Positions 8,093 through 32,677 of a DNA stretch of 64,000 nt are shown in pieces. The stretch spans positions 372,001-436,000 of the forward strand of contig CALSFV010000049.1 of NCBI GenBank assembly GCA_943737045.1, given 5' to 3'. Origin of the DNA: Parapristionchus giblindavisi. Its lineage: Eukaryota; Nematoda; Chromadorea; Rhabditida; Diplogasteridae. The notes beneath the pieces are model-generated. The model worked only from the letters and a program-made list of their open reading frames with translations. It had not been told where the DNA came from and did not search any database. Every line of letters begins with the position of its first letter. Positions within the stretch are counted from its first letter, which is position 1. The position numbers and the translations under genes were made by a program.

Positions 8093-11000
8093 TCAGATCT
8101 TATCAGCTAATTGTCGTAGTTGTGCCTTTATGATTTCTCTCCAGTTAGATACCATCTGCAACATAGAGATGATTTGATACGATAAGCCTCAAATAAGCCT
8201 GTAGTGTACTTATAAAGTGCACACTTGAAGTATACTCTAAGTAAACTACAAGTGAAACGTAAGCTTGCTTAAAGTGGTGTAGTATGCATGTCTTCAAATG
8301 TTCTTTCACGTGTAGTTTACTTATTAATTATGGTTTTTTCTTAAAAAGTTTCTAACGCAACCCATTTCTTAGTCCCTTTCTTTCATTCTCTATAATTGTT
8401 AGAGGGAGCGTAACTTCTCAAATGGTCTCTTCGGCGCGCAGTGCTTTCTCGTTGTTAGAGAGCAGAGAAATAGTGTGCACAATGGAGAGACCATTGAGAG
8501 AGCTAAAGCTCCCTTTAATTCAAGAATACTTTAAGTTTTTTAAAAAGTACTGTGTAATACCTCTCCATTAGCGTTGTCCAGTGCAGCTCTCATCAATCGA
8601 ATAATCAACTCCTCCAATGAACTTGTATTCGACGGTAAAGTAGTAGTTGTCGTCCTTCTCGTACTACTCGTAGTGTTTTCATCTACCGTAACCTCTTCAT
8701 CATCTACAGTACTCCATTCATATACCGTACTTGATTCCATCGTTTCATTAGTTGTGTATTGGATATCGTCAATAGTAGTTTCTTCTTCATATTCAGTGCT
8801 CCGTTTACTTCTCTCAACAGTTGTTTCCATTTCGTTTGTTGTTGCTTCTGTCAATTCATCTGTCGCTGAGCCTTCTGTCATTTCGAATTCACTGATCGTC
8901 TGATCTGTCTCTCCACTTGTCACCTCTTCTGTCACTTCGCTTGTCGTCTCATCTGTTGTTTCATCTGTCACTCCGCTGGTTGTGCTATATGTCTCTTCAG
9001 TAACCCCTTCTGTCACATCAGTAATCTCATCTGTCATTCCACTTGTCATCTCCTCAGTCATTTGATTTGTTGTCTCCTCTGTCACTTCACTCATCTCCTC
9101 TGTTTCTTCAGTTGTTTTCTCATCTGTCACTTCTGTCATATCCTCTGTCGCTTGAGTTGTCATGATATCTGTCATTTCTTCAGTCATTAGACTTGTCATA
9201 TCTTCTGTCACTCCGATTGTAGTCTCCTCTGCCAATTGAGTTGTCATCTCTTCTGTCATTTCATCAGTTGAAGTATTCAATGCTTGAGTAGTAATTGGAG
9301 TAGATTTAGTGGATTCTTCAGTATTTCGTGTAGTTGGATGAGCATCATTTCCAACATATGACATATTCCATATATAACATATAGGAGTAGTGGGATATCT
9401 ATATGACAGAGTGGGTACTTTTTCTTTAGAAGTTGTCAATGTGGTATCTGAAACAGTTAATAATGAGATAAATAGCTTCAATTATGGGCAGTACCTCGGA
9501 TGAGAACCGATGAATGATTACCGACTGGATGAGAAAAATAGGCATATGAGAGTCAAGCGCTAATGAATGACGAAATGATTTGTACTTGATCATTCTTTTA
9601 TTTCCGTGCATGTCATTTGTTCAGTTGGGATGAGTATGTATTAGATACATACTTTAACTATTATACAATATTTTTGATAACAATACTCAGTGGTGGTTCT
9701 ACTGAAGATGGCCAACACCACTGAGTAGGGTTCCGCTGTCTAGAACCCCTGGTCGAAACAGCGGGGCCTTAACTAGTTCTATATTGCATGTTATATAATA
9801 TTACTAGAGTACATTTGCATGTTTTTATATGTATACTGTACATCACATTAAATGCATACAAATTGTTCTCACCCTGTCGTTAGTATTCATCGGTTCTCAT
9901 CCGACCTAGTGCACTGCTATAGACTTACCAATATGGATATAATCAAAATGTTTATATAATGGTATAGTCGCTCCACATTGTCCACTGTTCTCTACGCAAT
10001 AGAATTTCTCTCCAGTGTAACTATATTTCTCAAAGATTCGATTTAATTCCGCATCGTCTCTCATAAGCTTATGGTCAATTCGATCTACAATCATATTCAT
10101 TATTCATATCATCAATATACTAAATATTAAAATATTAAAATAATATGAATAAAAAAATAATAATAAATACATACTAAATATTCCGGTTTGATTATCGAAT
10201 GTTTGTACAAGAGTGATCAGACACCCACACGATTTGTCATCGCCAGTTAGGATTTGACCCAATACACCCTTAATAATGTATTATTAATTTTAAAAAAATA
10301 TCAAGATTAGCTTATAGTTAGCCGTATGGTCAGTGAATGTGGAGTGTCTTAATTATTAATGTGCAAATATTTTATATTAATGCATATCGCATTTTTTTAG
10401 GATTAAAAAATAAATAAATAAATAGATGAATGAACATACAATCGGGGTATATCCATTTAGTTCACTTGAATCATTCGATTGAATTGTGTAGAAATGGTCA
10501 AGAAGAGATCCTAAATGTTGAATATAATATTTACATTATTTACATAAATATATTTTTTGGAATTTTAAGCTAACAAAGTGATTTTCTAGGGTGTTCTTTT
10601 TCATTTATTTCTTCGCTCTAATTGTTATTTTTCGAAACAAACAAGAGAATTTTTTTGTAAAAAAGGACAAAGGAAAAGAACACAAAGGACAAAAAGGACA
10701 AAAAAGGGACAAAAAGTACAAATGTAGGCATTTCACCACGGGAAAATCTGAATTCTGATTTTCAGATAAACTTTTTCAGATACAAAATACTACAAAAATA
10801 GAGATTTAGAAGACTCACCTGTCTTTCCATTAGAATATTCAATGAGATTGTTCATCATCTTAGTACTTGCATTGTTCTTCTCACACGATTGAATATCATT
10901 CAATAGAGAAGTATCCCTTTTATCTCTCTAAATAATCACATAATTATTAATATAACAATGTACACATCTTATTCATTTAAACTTAAAAGCATAATCTAAA

Positions 11001-27236: not shown

Positions 27237-30200
27237 AGTCGTGGAAGCAGCGGTGGAGGATGGGGAAGTGAGTTCATTTTTATTAGTCCTCTATATCTAA
27301 AGGGATCATTACCCCACTCAATGACCTCTTCATTGTTCACACTATTTCGCTGTTTTCTAACAACGAAAGAGCATTGCGCGTCGAAGAGACCATTGAGAGA
27401 GGTTACGCTCCCTTCAACAGTCATCTTTATTTAATGATTTTTATAATTACACACGACTTACATTACTACTAGAATTATATAGCATCATGGTTATTCAATC
27501 TCTCTTTGAAACTTATCCGATTTGAGCTTGTGCGTTGCGAATTTTGAACAACCGAATTTTATTTTCAGGCGACAGCAATAATAACAACAACAATAATAAT
27601 AATGCAGGAGGAGGTAGGTTTATGTTTACAAACATCAATCGACAACCCGATATATTTTAATATTTGGTGTAAAATGTTATTGAGAATGCTACGGATCAAT
27701 TTATCATGTGTGTATTTGCACAGCATGTGTATGCACATACATAAGATGAGTGAAAAGAGTTTGAAATGTAAAGGTGATGCATTTACCAGGGACCAAAGTC
27801 AAGTTTACCACTGTTGACGCAAAGATAGTATTGTGATATTTGTTGAGTGTGCATATAGTTTAACCTGTAACTAGTCTAGAACATCTTGGCTGGAAATATT
27901 GTTGATTTTTATAGATAGTATTGTATTTGTTGCTTTCACATTTGCTACATAGACAATTCTAGTTAGAGTTGTGTTTTTTAGGTGGCTGGAACAACGGAGG
28001 CGGCAATAATAACAATAATAACGGTAGATAATTCGTCTCGGTACTAACCTCGTTTCAAAAGTATTGAAAAGCTGAAAACAACAATGATAACTATCCACGT
28101 TTTGCATGCTATATCCCTTCTTTTTCATTTCTTTTCGCCACTCTTGAACAACACTTCACTGTATTCTACGTAATATCTAAAAAAACATAGAGATTATTAG
28201 AATTTATACATCCACAACGAATAACATTTATTTGTGAATGTCCTAATTTACATAGATATAAAATTGTAGGCGGTTGGAATAACAACAACAACAACAATAA
28301 TGGAGGCAATAACGGTAGTGCTTCATAGAATATTGATTAGTTGTCCAAATACGATTGTTATAGGAGGATGGAACACTAATAACAACAATAATGGAGGTGC
28401 GAAATGTGTTTGAACACGATTTATGGGAAAAAATCGGAAACATACCGCGATTTGTCATTTCCCATTTGTCATTTCCCATTTGGAAGTTGACTGTACCAAT
28501 GCAGAGTGTCACTAATACTAGACTAGATCCCTCTGCTTGCAGGATCCGGTGGATGGGCGTCGGACAACGGTAGACTTCCTAGATTTAGCAGACTTTCCCT
28601 GTCATGTCCATTTCTGTATAGACCGAAGGGGTTGTGGTAAACAACGGAAGTCTAAGGGTTCTACAATATAGCCATAACTGAGTTTATTCAGGTAACACTG
28701 GCCCTGGACCTACTGGTGGCGGATGGGCGAGTGAAACTCCACAAAACATGAGGAAACAACAGATCCAAGAAGTATGAGAAATTGATTTTATCATAAATAA
28801 TATAATAAGATGGTAATGGTAATCTTTCTTGCTAGTTACGGCGATTTTTGGATGAACAAGAATAATTGCATTCGTATTACTTTGTTTTGCATTATTGACC
28901 TTGGTGACGAAAACACAGATTACTGTAAATTATTGATTATTTATTAATTAATATTGATATATTGATTATTGATTACTAATTTTTTTCTTTGGGCTCTCTA
29001 CCCGTGTTTGCAACAGCGGTAGCTCTTTGGGCAGGGCTGCTGCCCCACCACCAGGGGCAGCAGCCTGCCCAAAGAGCTACCGCTGTTGCAAACACGGGTA
29101 GAGAGCCCAAAGAATTCTCGCCAAACCCCCAACTCACTCCTTTTGTTCATTACATTCGACCAGTTTTAAGCAAAAAATAGGCGGACGAAAACTTTTTGCT
29201 CCTACTCAATATACTACATATAAAGGAACGACTTGTTTAAAACCAAGATGTGTTATTTGCCCAAAAATGAGACTAAACGACCACGTAAAAAGTACAGTAA
29301 CCAATGACTTATACCAAACGAATAAAGATATTAATACCTCTTGCACTGCAGAAAATGTAATTTATCTTATTACATGTAAAGTTTGTGAAAAACAATATGT
29401 TGGACAAACCAAACGACCTGTAAAACAAAGAATGTCTGAACATAGACACTCATTCAGTCATAATAATCGTAATACTTTCTTAAGCAATCACTTTAAAGAA
29501 ACCTCCCACTCTAAAGAATCATTTTATATTGATATTCTAGATCATTCAATTGATGGTAAAGATTTGACCGAGAGAGAAATATATTGGATTAAAGCACTAA
29601 ATACAGCATTTCCGCTTGGATTAAATGACCAGATAAGTGGATTCGGAAATATTTCTGAACAAATTGATCCATTATCTAAGCGATCACACCCGTACTTCAA
29701 TATCAAACCGATAAGTTTGCCTAATAATACTAGAGGAATCAGAAAGAAAAGAAGAAGGAAACCAGCATACAAAGATACATCCCCAATTTCCGATATAATC
29801 CAAAATATAGAAAACTTGGAAACGAGAAATCTCTACACTTATGGTAAATCATTATATAAACACACACATAAAAGATTAATTCAATACACCGCTACTGAAG
29901 AGTTTTACAAGCATAGCTTTAAAACCAGATATAAAATTTATGCATTAGTCTGTAATACCTTCTGGTCAAACAAATCTACTTTAAAAGATGACAAGAAACC
30001 GAAAATTATAATGAAGGTTCATTACTTTGGTAGATACATGGAACTTCTTAAAATAGAAAAAGAAATGAATAAAGCATACATATCAGAAGAACTATTAAAA
30101 TATAAACCTTCCGAAATAATACCTAAAATATCAGTAGTCTATACGTTAGAACAACCAATTTCGTACTTTCTATGTAACTACAATCGGTTTTTGAAAACAT

Positions 30201-32677
30201 TAAGCAGAGAAGAAAAAGATAAAATACTGAAAGAGGATTGCATCTGTGCTAACTATCCTGAATTCATTGATAAAAAATTGGGTCACATATGCACCGGTAA
30301 CAGAAATATCATATCGAACCATGAATTAAGAAAACTGTTCGAGTTTGGAACAAGTTATCGGATATCGCCTAATAGCACACTTGAAGAAATTCAGGAAAAC
30401 ATTAAAGAATCAATTTACAATGTAATAGAAAAATTATGTCGAAAACTAAAATTGAACTCTTCACAAGCAAGCAACATTAAACAAATGTATCATTCACTTT
30501 ATGAAAATAAGCTAAAAGTAAAGCTACTAAATAAATATACAAGTGAACAAAATAAAACAAAGTTTAATCTAAAAGATCTACACAAGAATTTCATAATAAC
30601 ACAAGTTGACAAAGCAAAAAGTAATTTTGCATTCACATGCAAAAAATTATACTTAACATTTCTTGAAAAAGAATTATCCACTGAAGAAAACAATAGTAGA
30701 ACATACGAGCCAGACAACTCAATTGACTATGATGAAATAATACGAAGACATACAAGAAAGACTAATGAATACAAACTAAATCAGATAGAGGACTGTGCAC
30801 TACCACGAATTTATGCTATACCAAAAATGCATAAAAATCCTATTAAAGCACGATTCATTACAGGAGCTTACAACAGTAGTTTGAAATCCATATCAAAAGA
30901 ACTTCAATTAATACTTAAACACTTAAAACTACATTTCCAAAGATATTGTAAAACAATTACCGAAAGAAATGGCATTAATCTTTATTTTTCAATAGATAAC
31001 ACTATAATAGTTAACCAACGTTTGAAAACTTTATCAAATAAAAATGCAAAAATATTTTGTGCTGATTTCTCTTCATTATTTACGAATCTACCTCATAAAA
31101 TAGTGAATGAAAACATATTCAAGTTAATAGAATTAATGTTTCGAAATGCTAAAAAAGAGTACATTAATGTCACAGGACAAAAGACTTTCTACAGTAATTC
31201 ACGAGCATTATATAGCAGAAGTTACGATAAAAATGACATTAAAATGATGCTTGAATATGTTCTCAATAACAGTTACGCAATATACGCAGGTCAGATATTC
31301 AAACAAAATAAAGGAATACCGCAAGGCAACAATGCATCTCCTCAAATAGCAGATCTAACACTTTCATTCATGGAATATGAATATATATACGAAAATATAA
31401 AACAAGGACACACTTTAGCACAGAAACTTTCTAGAACATTTAGATACATAGATGACCTATTTCATTGTTCAGATAAATCAGAAGATTTTATAGCAATCAC
31501 ACCATTTATCTATCACAATTCACTAACATTAGAGAAAACAAATCAAACAGATTTCAAAACAGCTTTTCTAGATCTAGACATACATATAGAAAATGGCTAT
31601 GCGATAACATCAATTTATAACAAAACAGATGATTATTCTTTCAAAGTAATCAGATATCCTCATTATAACTCATGTATACCATTAAGAATAGGATTAAATA
31701 CTCTACATGGGGAAATACTTCGAATATATCGAAACAGTACCGAGTATAAAAGCTTCTTTGATAGAACAAAACAGCTTATAGTAACATTTAAAAATCTTAA
31801 TTATCCATTATTTCAAATTCATAGCAGAATATTCAAAACAATTGGTAATAATCCTTGTATATCAATTAAATATGCAACGAATAAAGGGTTATTATGTCAT
31901 AGTTTATTGAAAAGATAATATATATGATGATCTTTGATCTTTACAATTATTCAATGCAACAGTCTATCTCTTGAACACAAGACTGATATACCATCCATCT
32001 ACCCATAGTCAATGACCTCTTCTCTTCTCTTGACCTATTAGACAGAGATTTGTAGTTTGTATAGGTCCAACAATTGCGTATAAATACACCGACCCCACGC
32101 TAATCAATCGTCACTGTGCTAGTTATTAATCGTCACTCTGCTAGTTCGCCAAAGGAAAAGAGGTCAGACGGGACGAATGATGGGACTCTTCACTCATCTA
32201 CTCATCTTTACTCATCAACAAGACAACATCTGTTCAAAGAAAGGGTTCATTTTAATACCAATTCCGTTGATTATATTGTATTCATCTTTTGTCAATTTTA
32301 GTAATTCATACTTAGTTCGCTTTACATGTTGTTTAATAGTACTTTAGCCTAACTAATTAAGTAGTTTTCCTTGATTTAATAGTTTAGTTGTAGAATTAAA
32401 ACAATTTTACACTTTCATATTAAAATCTAGTTTTATAAAGGTTCTAGAAAGACCTGGTGCTGTCTACTGAAGATGGCCGCGACACCAGGCAACGCTTTAT
32501 GGTGTCTAGACGTAGCGGCCGAAACACCATAAGGCACATTGCTAGTTAACTTATTTAATCAAATAATTTATATTTAAAGTGCATGCATACTTATTCTTGT
32601 ACATCTATTAATAATATTAATTTAATTTTCAGGCCTTCCGAAAGGGCAACATCGACGACGGAGCTCGTGGGAAGTGA
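27237..32677 (+). CDS. Gly/Trp/Asn-rich protein of phase-1 mini-exons, 5' end not found
   Basis: Eight exons: 27237-27267, 27569-27613, 27982-28023, 28270-28314, 28364-28396, 28543-28569, 28692-28771 and 32633-32677. Internal exons are 27-45 nt, all start and end in phase 1 and nearly all encode a GGW unit followed by Asn/Gly runs. The last coding exon begins in phase 0 and ends AFRKGNIDDGARGK-stop. No start codon or signal peptide was found upstream of 27237, so the model is partial; the first acceptor (TTGAAG) is weak. The final intron is 3861 bp because it holds the Penelope-like element. Low-complexity GGW/Asn composition suggests a structural or secreted protein, but this is only inference. 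Confidence 0.65.
27298..27418. repeat. MITE-1 copy in an intron of the GGW gene
   Basis: Intact arms; ends AAAGGGATCATTAC and CGCTCCCTTC. Confidence 0.75.
28987..29112. repeat. Long GC-rich perfect hairpin before the Penelope-like ORF
   Basis: Arms of 58-60 bp differ by one inserted G; loop is ACCACCA at 29047-29053. Arms start CTTTGGGCTCTCTACCC. It is far richer in GC than its surroundings. The right arm contains the stop that closes the retroelement frame upstream (29099-29101). Confidence 0.9.
29102..31918 (+). CDS. Penelope-like retroelement protein: N-terminal GIY-YIG endonuclease and reverse transcriptase
   Basis: An uninterrupted frame of 938 codons; the first ATG is at 29267 (883 residues), but conserved-looking sequence with CLKPRCVICPKM (CX5CX2C) lies upstream of it, so the native start is uncertain or lost to the adjoining hairpin. 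Counting from 29267: GIY-YIG endonuclease at about 28-125 (VIYLITC, YVGQT, KQRMSEHR, catalytic Glu in LTEREIYW). The reverse transcriptase follows, with PKMHKNPIKARFI, motif A FCADFSSLFTNLP near 596, motif B GIPQGNNASPQ near 682 and motif C YIDDL at 727-731. Canonical Penelope elements carry GIY-YIG at the C-terminus; the N-terminal placement matches the Chlamys/Naiad lineage with permuted domains. No in-frame TGA, so no sign of selenocysteine use. It sits in the last intron of the GGW gene, same strand. Confidence 0.9.
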   Translation, partial: RAQRILAKPPTHSFCSLHSTSFKQKIGGRKLFAPTQYTTYKGTTCLKPRCVICPKMRLNDHVKSTVTNDLYQTNKDINTSCTAENVIYLITCKVCEKQYVGQTKRPVKQRMSEHRHSFSHNNRNTFLSNHFKETSHSKESFYIDILDHSIDGKDLTEREIYWIKALNTAFPLGLNDQISGFGNISEQIDPLSKRSHPYFNIKPISLPNNTRGIRKKRRRKPAYKDTSPISDIIQNIENLETRNLYTYGKSLYKHTHKRLIQYTATEEFYKHSFKTRYKIYALVCNTFWSNKSTLKDDKKPKIIMKVHYFGRYMELLKIEKEMNKAYISEELLKYKPSEIIPKISVVYTLEQPISYFLCNYNRFLKTLSREEKDKILKEDCICANYPEFIDKKLGHICTGNRNIISNHELRKLFEFGTSYRISPNSTLEEIQENIKESIYNVIEKLCRKLKLNSSQASNIKQMYHSLYENKLKVKLLNKYTSEQNKTKFNLKDLHKNFIITQVDKAKSNFAFTCKKLYLTFLEKELSTEENNSRTYEPDNSIDYDEIIRRHTRKTNEYKLNQIEDCALPRIYAIPKMHKNPIKARFITGAYNSSLKSISKELQLILKHLKLHFQRYCKTITERNGINLYFSIDNTIIVNQRLKTLSNKNAKIFCADFSSLFTNLPHKIVNENIFKLIELMFRNAKKEYINVTGQKTFYSNSRALYSRSYDKNDIKMMLEYVLNNSYAIYAGQIFKQNKGIPQGNNASPQIADLTLSFMEYEYIYENIKQGHTLAQKLSRTFRYIDDLFHCSDKSEDFIAITPFIYHNSLTLEKTNQTDFKTAFLDLDIHIENGYAITSIYNKTDDYSFKVIRYPHYNSCIPLRIGLNTLHGEILRIYRNSTEYKSFFDRTKQLIVTFKNLNYPLFQIHSRIFKTIGNNPCISIKYATNKGLLCHSLLKR
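32453..32535 (+). ncRNA. Permuted hammerhead-like ribozyme, copy 1
   Basis: Hairpin 1 stem CCUGGUG/CACCAGG (32453-32459 with 32483-32489). Its loop holds stem I strand GUCUA (32462-32466), CUGAAGA (32467-32473), one U, and stem II strand GGCCGC (32475-32480). Hairpin 2 is stem III (32494-32504 with 32525-32535, one G-U). Its loop reads UC, UAGAC, GUA, GCGGCC, GAAA. Stem I pairs 32462-32466 with 32507-32511; stem II pairs 32475-32480 with 32515-32520; A32524 pairs U32505. All hammerhead core residues except the extra U at 32474 are in their canonical neighbourhoods; only strand order differs. Cleavage is predicted after C32506. It lies 535 nt downstream of the Penelope-like stop codon; known Penelope-like elements often carry hammerheads. 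Confidence 0.65.

Follow-up and report, generated by a model that had tools for sequence, protein, structure and literature searches.

Does a 64,000-nucleotide (nt) stretch of the genome of the nematode Parapristionchus giblindavisi (contig CALSFV010000049.1, positions 372,001 to 436,000; hereafter the window) encode a hammerhead ribozyme whose strands are joined in a permuted order, and what might such a ribozyme do at the end of a mobile element? A first-pass annotation, made from the letters alone, had placed a hammerhead core in the strand order a-c-b at window positions 32453–32535, with a fourth stem closing one side, and had raised a link to Penelope-like elements. Our analysis indicates that the motif is very probably a self-cleaving hammerhead ribozyme of type CSG, with predicted activity, which a nematode Penelope-like retrotransposon carries in its repeated untranslated region.

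The motif consists of two adjacent hairpins on the forward strand, the loops of which kiss via two helices, stems I and II. The loop of the stem IV hairpin contains the stem I 5′ strand, CUGAAGA, one U, and the stem II 5′ strand, and the loop of the stem III hairpin contains C17, the stem I 3′ strand, GUA, the stem II 3′ strand, and GAA. Pairing between the loops places CUGAAGA, GAAA, and GUC as in a hammerhead, giving a complete core in the block order C-S-G rather than the cyclic C-G-S order of hammerhead types I, II, and III. The coordinates, pairings, and core placement of the first-pass annotation were reproduced, as were its permuted order, which is present in both copies found in the window, and its fourth stem (stem IV). 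The parts of the motif, and the second copy, are as follows.

32453–32459, forward strand: stem IV 5′ strand, pairing with 32483–32489; stem IV bridges block C between its stem I and stem II sides
32462–32466, forward strand: stem I 5′ strand, pairing with 32507–32511; an extra U-G pair, 32461–32512, is possible
32467–32473, forward strand: block C core, CUGAAGA
32474, forward strand: extra unpaired U before stem II, a trait of families A, B, and C
32475–32480, forward strand: stem II 5′ strand, GGCCGC, pairing with 32515–32520
32483–32489, forward strand: stem IV 3′ strand
32494–32505, forward strand: stem III 5′ strand, last base U16.1, pairing with 32524–32535
32506, forward strand: C17; predicted cleavage site between 32506 and 32507, from hammerhead core geometry and family C junction copies
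32507–32511, forward strand: stem I 3′ strand
32512–32514, forward strand: linker GUA from stem I to stem II
32515–32520, forward strand: stem II 3′ strand, GCGGCC
32521–32523, forward strand: block G core, GAA (G12, A13, A14), with A15.1 at 32524
32524–32535, forward strand: stem III 3′ strand
9685–9769, forward strand: second type-CSG ribozyme, predicted to cleave after C9740; it scores 105 bits with the R1 model, which was built from five copies including this one, so that the score is not independent

Chance was ruled out as the origin of the motif by a shuffle control. A pseudoknot descriptor comprising the four stems and the core, run on both strands, matched the window at exactly two places, with 31 and 35 base pairs (bp) in all, whereas 400 dinucleotide shuffles of the window gave three matches in total, the best with 21 bp; when the stem IV requirement was dropped, the shuffles gave 23. 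The nested fold of 32440–32550 was unremarkable (z-score −1.69; 16 of 200 shuffles folded at least as well); the pseudoknot is invisible to nested folding, and a hairpin inside loop IV competes. We also rejected the candidate that the motif is a known Rfam family under another name: the only window match at gathering score was to SL2 RNA, the region 32400–32600 gave only weak chance matches (E 1.3 and above), and neither the window nor any of 15 further loci matched the Rfam hammerhead models.

Searches of the 251-Mb assembly (in which the window is G000:C49:372001-436000) revealed that the motif is widely repeated. The core-block pattern CTGAAGATGGCC had 482 genomic matches compared with four for the reversed control, and the pattern TGTC-N8-16-GGYCGAAACA had 1171 compared with five, a count that includes shortened copies and tandem arrays. 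CTGABGAGGCCC matched 328 times (control 47), and two narrower patterns matched 32 (control 0) and 13 times (control 2). Sequence context was examined for 30 of the 482 matches plus 14 longer regions, for 30 of the 1171 plus 20 chosen for diversity, for 40 of the 328 (chosen among 100 matches listed), and for 20 of the 32; among the 30 contexts of the 482-match pattern, at least L023, L024, and L029 were unrelated. Core patterns also matched 52 viral and five prokaryote stretches, and the descriptor, with stem IV optional, fitted none of these 57 (512 kb).

The copies fall into six subfamilies. Families A, B, and C have CUGAAGA followed by the extra U, and D and F (CUGAUGA) and E (CUGACGA) are without it; thus, the unpaired U that the first-pass annotation reported as a deviation is indeed present in both window copies and is missing from three of the six subfamilies. 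The core nucleotides CUGA(A/U/C)GA, GUC, and GAAA, motifs that were also part of the search patterns, are kept in all six subfamily representatives, in which stem IV has 7–11 bp, with much of its sequence shared by D and F. A covariance model built from families A and B, with pairs specified for stems III and IV only, recognized copies of families C, D, E, and F, with E values from 0.003 to 2.6e-9; the 28 matches came from 27 sources preselected as carriers.

Covariation was assessed in 35 distinct rows anchored on the core motifs alone, against a null of 5000 re-deals of the 3′ strands. Copies were retained only if GG(C/T)C stood after CUGANGA and before GAAA and GTC lay in range, which let through some damaged copies (such as L069, L084, L154, and L206); L095–L151 were not included. 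Standard pairs occupied 156 of 175 cells in stem I, 173 of 175 in stem II, and 294 of 315 in stem III, values that none of the 5000 re-deals reached for any stem, and when the partners were slid by one to three places 7–66% of cells paired. Two-sided changes occurred at I.4 (TA, CG), I.5 (TA, GC; GA in D), II.5 (AT, GC, CG), and six pairs of stem III. Stems I, II, and III of the motif are supported by covariation, most weakly stem I when each subfamily is counted once.

Two of the examined loci have a structure of their own. L036 (G000:C27:858000-863500) contains ten tandem 338-bp units in which the ribozyme, by eye, looks decayed (H17 is U and stem II is broken) and the descriptor has no match; another tandem array, with a spacing of 552 bp, lies on C3 near 1727851. 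At L038 (G000:C2:793000-802500), a large inverted duplication with direct repeats spaced by about 325 bases encloses a pair of oppositely oriented family C copies.

The suspected Penelope-like link was borne out, the motif being the 3′ end of a recognizable element copy. The element features of the window, and the fragment that holds its second ribozyme, are as follows.

29046–32627, forward strand: 5′-truncated Penelope-like element copy of family C with the ribozyme at its 3′ end, 99.4% identical to L034 2320–5903 over 3584 columns
29102–31918, forward strand: open frame of 938 amino acids (stop to stop), with an N-terminal GIY-YIG domain and a reverse transcriptase region with YIDD towards the C terminus
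32536–32627, forward strand: element 3′ tail, closing at the end of homology with L034, 121 nt after C32506
9597–9851, forward strand: solitary family B fragment without an open reading frame (ORF), with 93–94% identity to family B elements over 258 columns

Penelope-like elements include a clade with an N-terminal GIY-YIG domain. In a comparison with Pfam, residues 86–168 of the window ORF matched GIY-YIG with 35 bits, and the same domain was found in four further elements. RVT_1 had no match in the window ORF at E 0.1 or better, YIDD having been recognized by eye in the alignment; it appeared only below its 29.6-bit cut-off in L031 (the family A ORF; 24 bits) and in the second piece of L034 (22.1 bits), and not at all in the ORFs of L035 or L043. 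The L031 protein had no relative by sequence among solved structures, and a search of viral contigs for relatives of the ORF found none; in a large protein set there were 17, the nine closest of which lie on contigs of 3.1–5.4 kb. A genome search with the family A ORF gave 693 first-look places, and the 48 that were scored were 62–100% identical.

Eight of the 14 longer loci, which had been chosen for motif spacing, have two motif copies that point the same way, 4.2–4.7 kb from each other, and flank the ORF (L031–L035, L037, L042, and L043), a pseudo-long terminal repeat (pLTR)-like arrangement; the window copy itself is single. The intervening ORF is one frame of 938–943 amino acids in L031, L033, L035, L037, and L043, has 823 amino acids in L042, and is in two pieces in L032 and L034. 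Overall, judged from its sequence, the element that carries the ribozyme is a nematode Penelope-like retrotransposon. At its 5′ end the window copy has a foldback inverted repeat (28985–29110): element sequence from the directly oriented part downstream appears as its reverse complement at ∼28985–29046, a 5′ inversion.

The cleavage position predicted at the outset, after C32506, was upheld by core geometry and by the ends of other copies in the genome. In family C, the base that precedes TAGACGTAGCGGCCGAAACA (and the match to 32507) is something other than C in 284 copies, compared with 14 copies that depart from homology one base upstream and 56 that depart one base downstream; each junction pattern excludes one of the four bases. 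We consider it rather unlikely, among the rival explanations the one that survives best, that this peak is no footprint of the ribozyme and reflects instead an amplified short non-autonomous element that happens to start there, or reverse transcriptase stopping at the folded ribozyme; this alternative concerns the footprint and leaves the ribozyme itself untouched. Consistent with such an origin, the peak is missing in families A and F, and the view with flanks covers a single one of the 284 junction copies. In favour of a footprint, that copy (L011 + 1694) has unrelated DNA upstream and ends about 120 nt later. Against an amplified element or a stop, the junction copies among the 100 matches listed are spread over many contigs and are preceded by varied bases (T, A, or, four times, G). 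For 19 junction copies on C1–C9, among the matches listed, no second exact match to block S/G turned up in the 8 kb downstream (a check that compared 78 of 100 places listed for TGTC-N8-16-GGYCGAAACA); a stop caused by structure would hardly be expected to fall precisely on the scissile bond. Overall, the family C peak suggests that cleaved RNA served as a template.

A sharp 5′ boundary in truncated copies that retain GTC was also considered and found to be unsupported, short homology ending 4–36 nt upstream of the cut. Small duplications were seen at the cut site in L194 (GTCTAGAC/TAGACG) and L092 (GTCTATAA/TAGAACC), which may have arisen when the cut end was repaired or the template was switched there.

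Several observations weigh against a ribozyme that cleaves and leaves this trace. With one row per subfamily, stems I, II, and III still pair in 29 of 30, 30 of 30, and 53 of 54 cells, but 272, 77, and 7 of the 5000 re-deals, respectively, reach these values, which tells against stems I and II. Pairs I.1–I.3 are without any two-sided change; II.1–II.4 are largely fixed by the search patterns and hence are little informative; and family D has a stem I of only 4 bp, with G-A at I.5. In families C, D, and E, nested folding prefers a longer hairpin IV in which the stem I 5′ strand pairs with CUGANGA. Families A and F have only 9 and 14 copies at the cut site. Element base T1.1 is indistinguishable from a target T, so that the peak could sit one base further in, and some of the 284, 14, and 56 copies may be point changes, as is one of the 56 (C85:383276). 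Finally, hammerhead mutants of PAc, a Penelope-like element of Anolis, still insert in vitro (PMC11167929).

How might such a ribozyme act? The layers on which a mechanism can be built were observed: sequence, structure, covariation, element context, and the family C junction peak at the cut site. Hairpins IV and III would form and their loops would kiss through stems I and II, building a normal hammerhead core in which stem IV and the short linker would hold stems I and II alongside each other. The RNA would then cut itself after C17 (C32506), 121 nt before the 3′ end of the element, so that the cut RNA would begin at +1. A reverse transcriptase starting near +121 could copy only about 121 nt of cut RNA, and full-length copies would need uncut or circularized RNA. 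We infer cleavage, the folding order, the start of reverse transcription near +121, the use of the template, and circularization. An internal start like that of PAc, in the nematode element, would yield from cut RNA an insertion that runs from the base after C17 to the end of the tail. An alternative local hairpin inside loop IV was seen at L053, at L081, and at 32460–32479 of the window; in the modelled fold it would hide the core, and it may represent a resting state or a trap, possibly inactive. Estimated stem I duplex energies range from −0.7 (D) to −9.2 kcal/mol (A).

We regard as improbable the explanation that the motif is a non-catalytic structured RNA, whose hairpins are a binding or start site for reverse transcriptase and whose hammerhead core is a relic or a resemblance. 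The nested hairpins are the most stable part of the RNA, reverse transcription starts internally, not at the 3′ end, in the RNA of another Penelope-like element as described (PMC11167929), and the lack of a cut-site peak in families A and F would fit as well. Yet families A, B, and C have retained the catalytic positions despite the divergence of their proteins, that of A being only 63% identical to that of family B element L043 (C20:1001892-1004717) and 49% identical, over 916 positions, to the window ORF of family C. The same positions are kept in D, E, and F, protein identities being given for A, B, and C only. Moreover, helices I and II covary, and family C copies begin at the cut site 284 times. 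The least probable alternative, that the hammerhead is assembled between tandem repeats (C and G of one unit, S of the next) or by kissing in trans, can draw on the occurrence of elements in tandem and on small Penelope-like element hammerheads, which Lunse and colleagues are said to have found in 2017 to cleave as dimers, but hairpin IV, present in all six subfamily representatives, is accounted for by a one-molecule fold, both window copies are single, and an ordinary fold across units would require loops over 4 kb.

With a type-CSG hammerhead as the preferred interpretation, we compared the element with known systems. Retrozymes generally use ordinary hammerheads, and other Penelope-like elements generally use hammerheads of ordinary order. 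Like the element described here, retrozymes have hammerhead-bearing repeats and occur as short solo and tandem copies; they are described as non-autonomous, whereas here a coding element carries the ribozyme, with frames of 938–943 amino acids in the window, L031, L033, L035, L037, and L043.

The first-pass annotation knew of no described hammerhead with this strand order. The order is, in fact, that of type CSG, which is known from two similar metagenomic DNA sequences described by Eckert et al. in 2023 among non-circular hammerhead block orders (PMC10085705). For those two sequences, in vitro cleavage rates of 0.004 and 0.026 per minute are given, and the biological relevance of the type was judged there to have weaker evidence because of few covariation events (PMC10085705). 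Compared by description, the published type and the motif here share the C-S-G order, the hammerhead core, two pseudoknots, and a helix joining stems I and II (PMC10085705). The published 3′ cleavage products are 29 nt long, in constructs that may include flanks, and in the window copy the distance between the cut and the end of stem III is 29 nt. The published sequences show modest covariation and have no host named in that description, whereas the motif here occurs in many copies and six covarying subfamilies, sits in a nematode retrotransposon, and shows a junction peak. Type SGC, likewise permuted non-circularly, has a linker that is typically three bases long, and in it too a helix connects stems I and II; it differs in having another start point of the same cyclic order and comes, as described, from metatranscriptomes (PMC10085705).

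Closest in its setting is PAc, in which reverse transcription is reported to start inside the RNA, downstream of the hammerhead cut (PMC11167929). In PAc, as here, the ribozyme lies near the pLTR/ORF, upstream of an internal reverse-transcription start (presumed for the element here), with tandem copies and a genomic tail; unlike PAc as described (PMC11167929), the element here has the C-S-G order, an N-terminal GIY-YIG domain, and family C copies that start at the cut site. In the open-licence literature searched, no animal element with type CSG was found. Nor did the sources covered there, as far as they go, contain the host, the mobile-element setting, or the junction footprint, the topology itself having been known since 2023.

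We lean, with little to spare, towards a broader interpretation in which the CSG hammerhead, rather than being a curiosity of metagenomes, is the resident ribozyme of a whole nematode Penelope-like lineage with an N-terminal endonuclease. Its cleaved RNA would be a germ-line template, giving rise to hundreds of ∼120-bp insertions that start exactly at the scissile bond, and the ribozyme would limit full-length transposition, full copies needing RNA that is uncut or circular.

Apart from the ribozyme, the window contains the SL2 RNA match, at 2220–2325 (41.9 bits; gathering score 41). The nematode spliced leader SL1 had 351 genomic matches compared with none for the reversed control, which together with the marginal SL2 match points to a nematode host, and, among the matches listed, G000:C145:26449-82876 holds a long SL1 tandem array with a spacing of about 1167 bases.

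In conclusion, as far as sequence can tell, the motif is a real, abundant, and covarying type-CSG hammerhead, with cleavage predicted. The genome of P. giblindavisi places type CSG in a host and in a mobile element, with six covarying subfamilies and what is likely a genomic trace of cleavage, and its natural variants can serve structural studies of permuted RNA folds. What hammerheads do in Penelope-like elements becomes testable, and the junction peak suggests that self-cleaved RNA is used as a template in one family and apparently not in two others.

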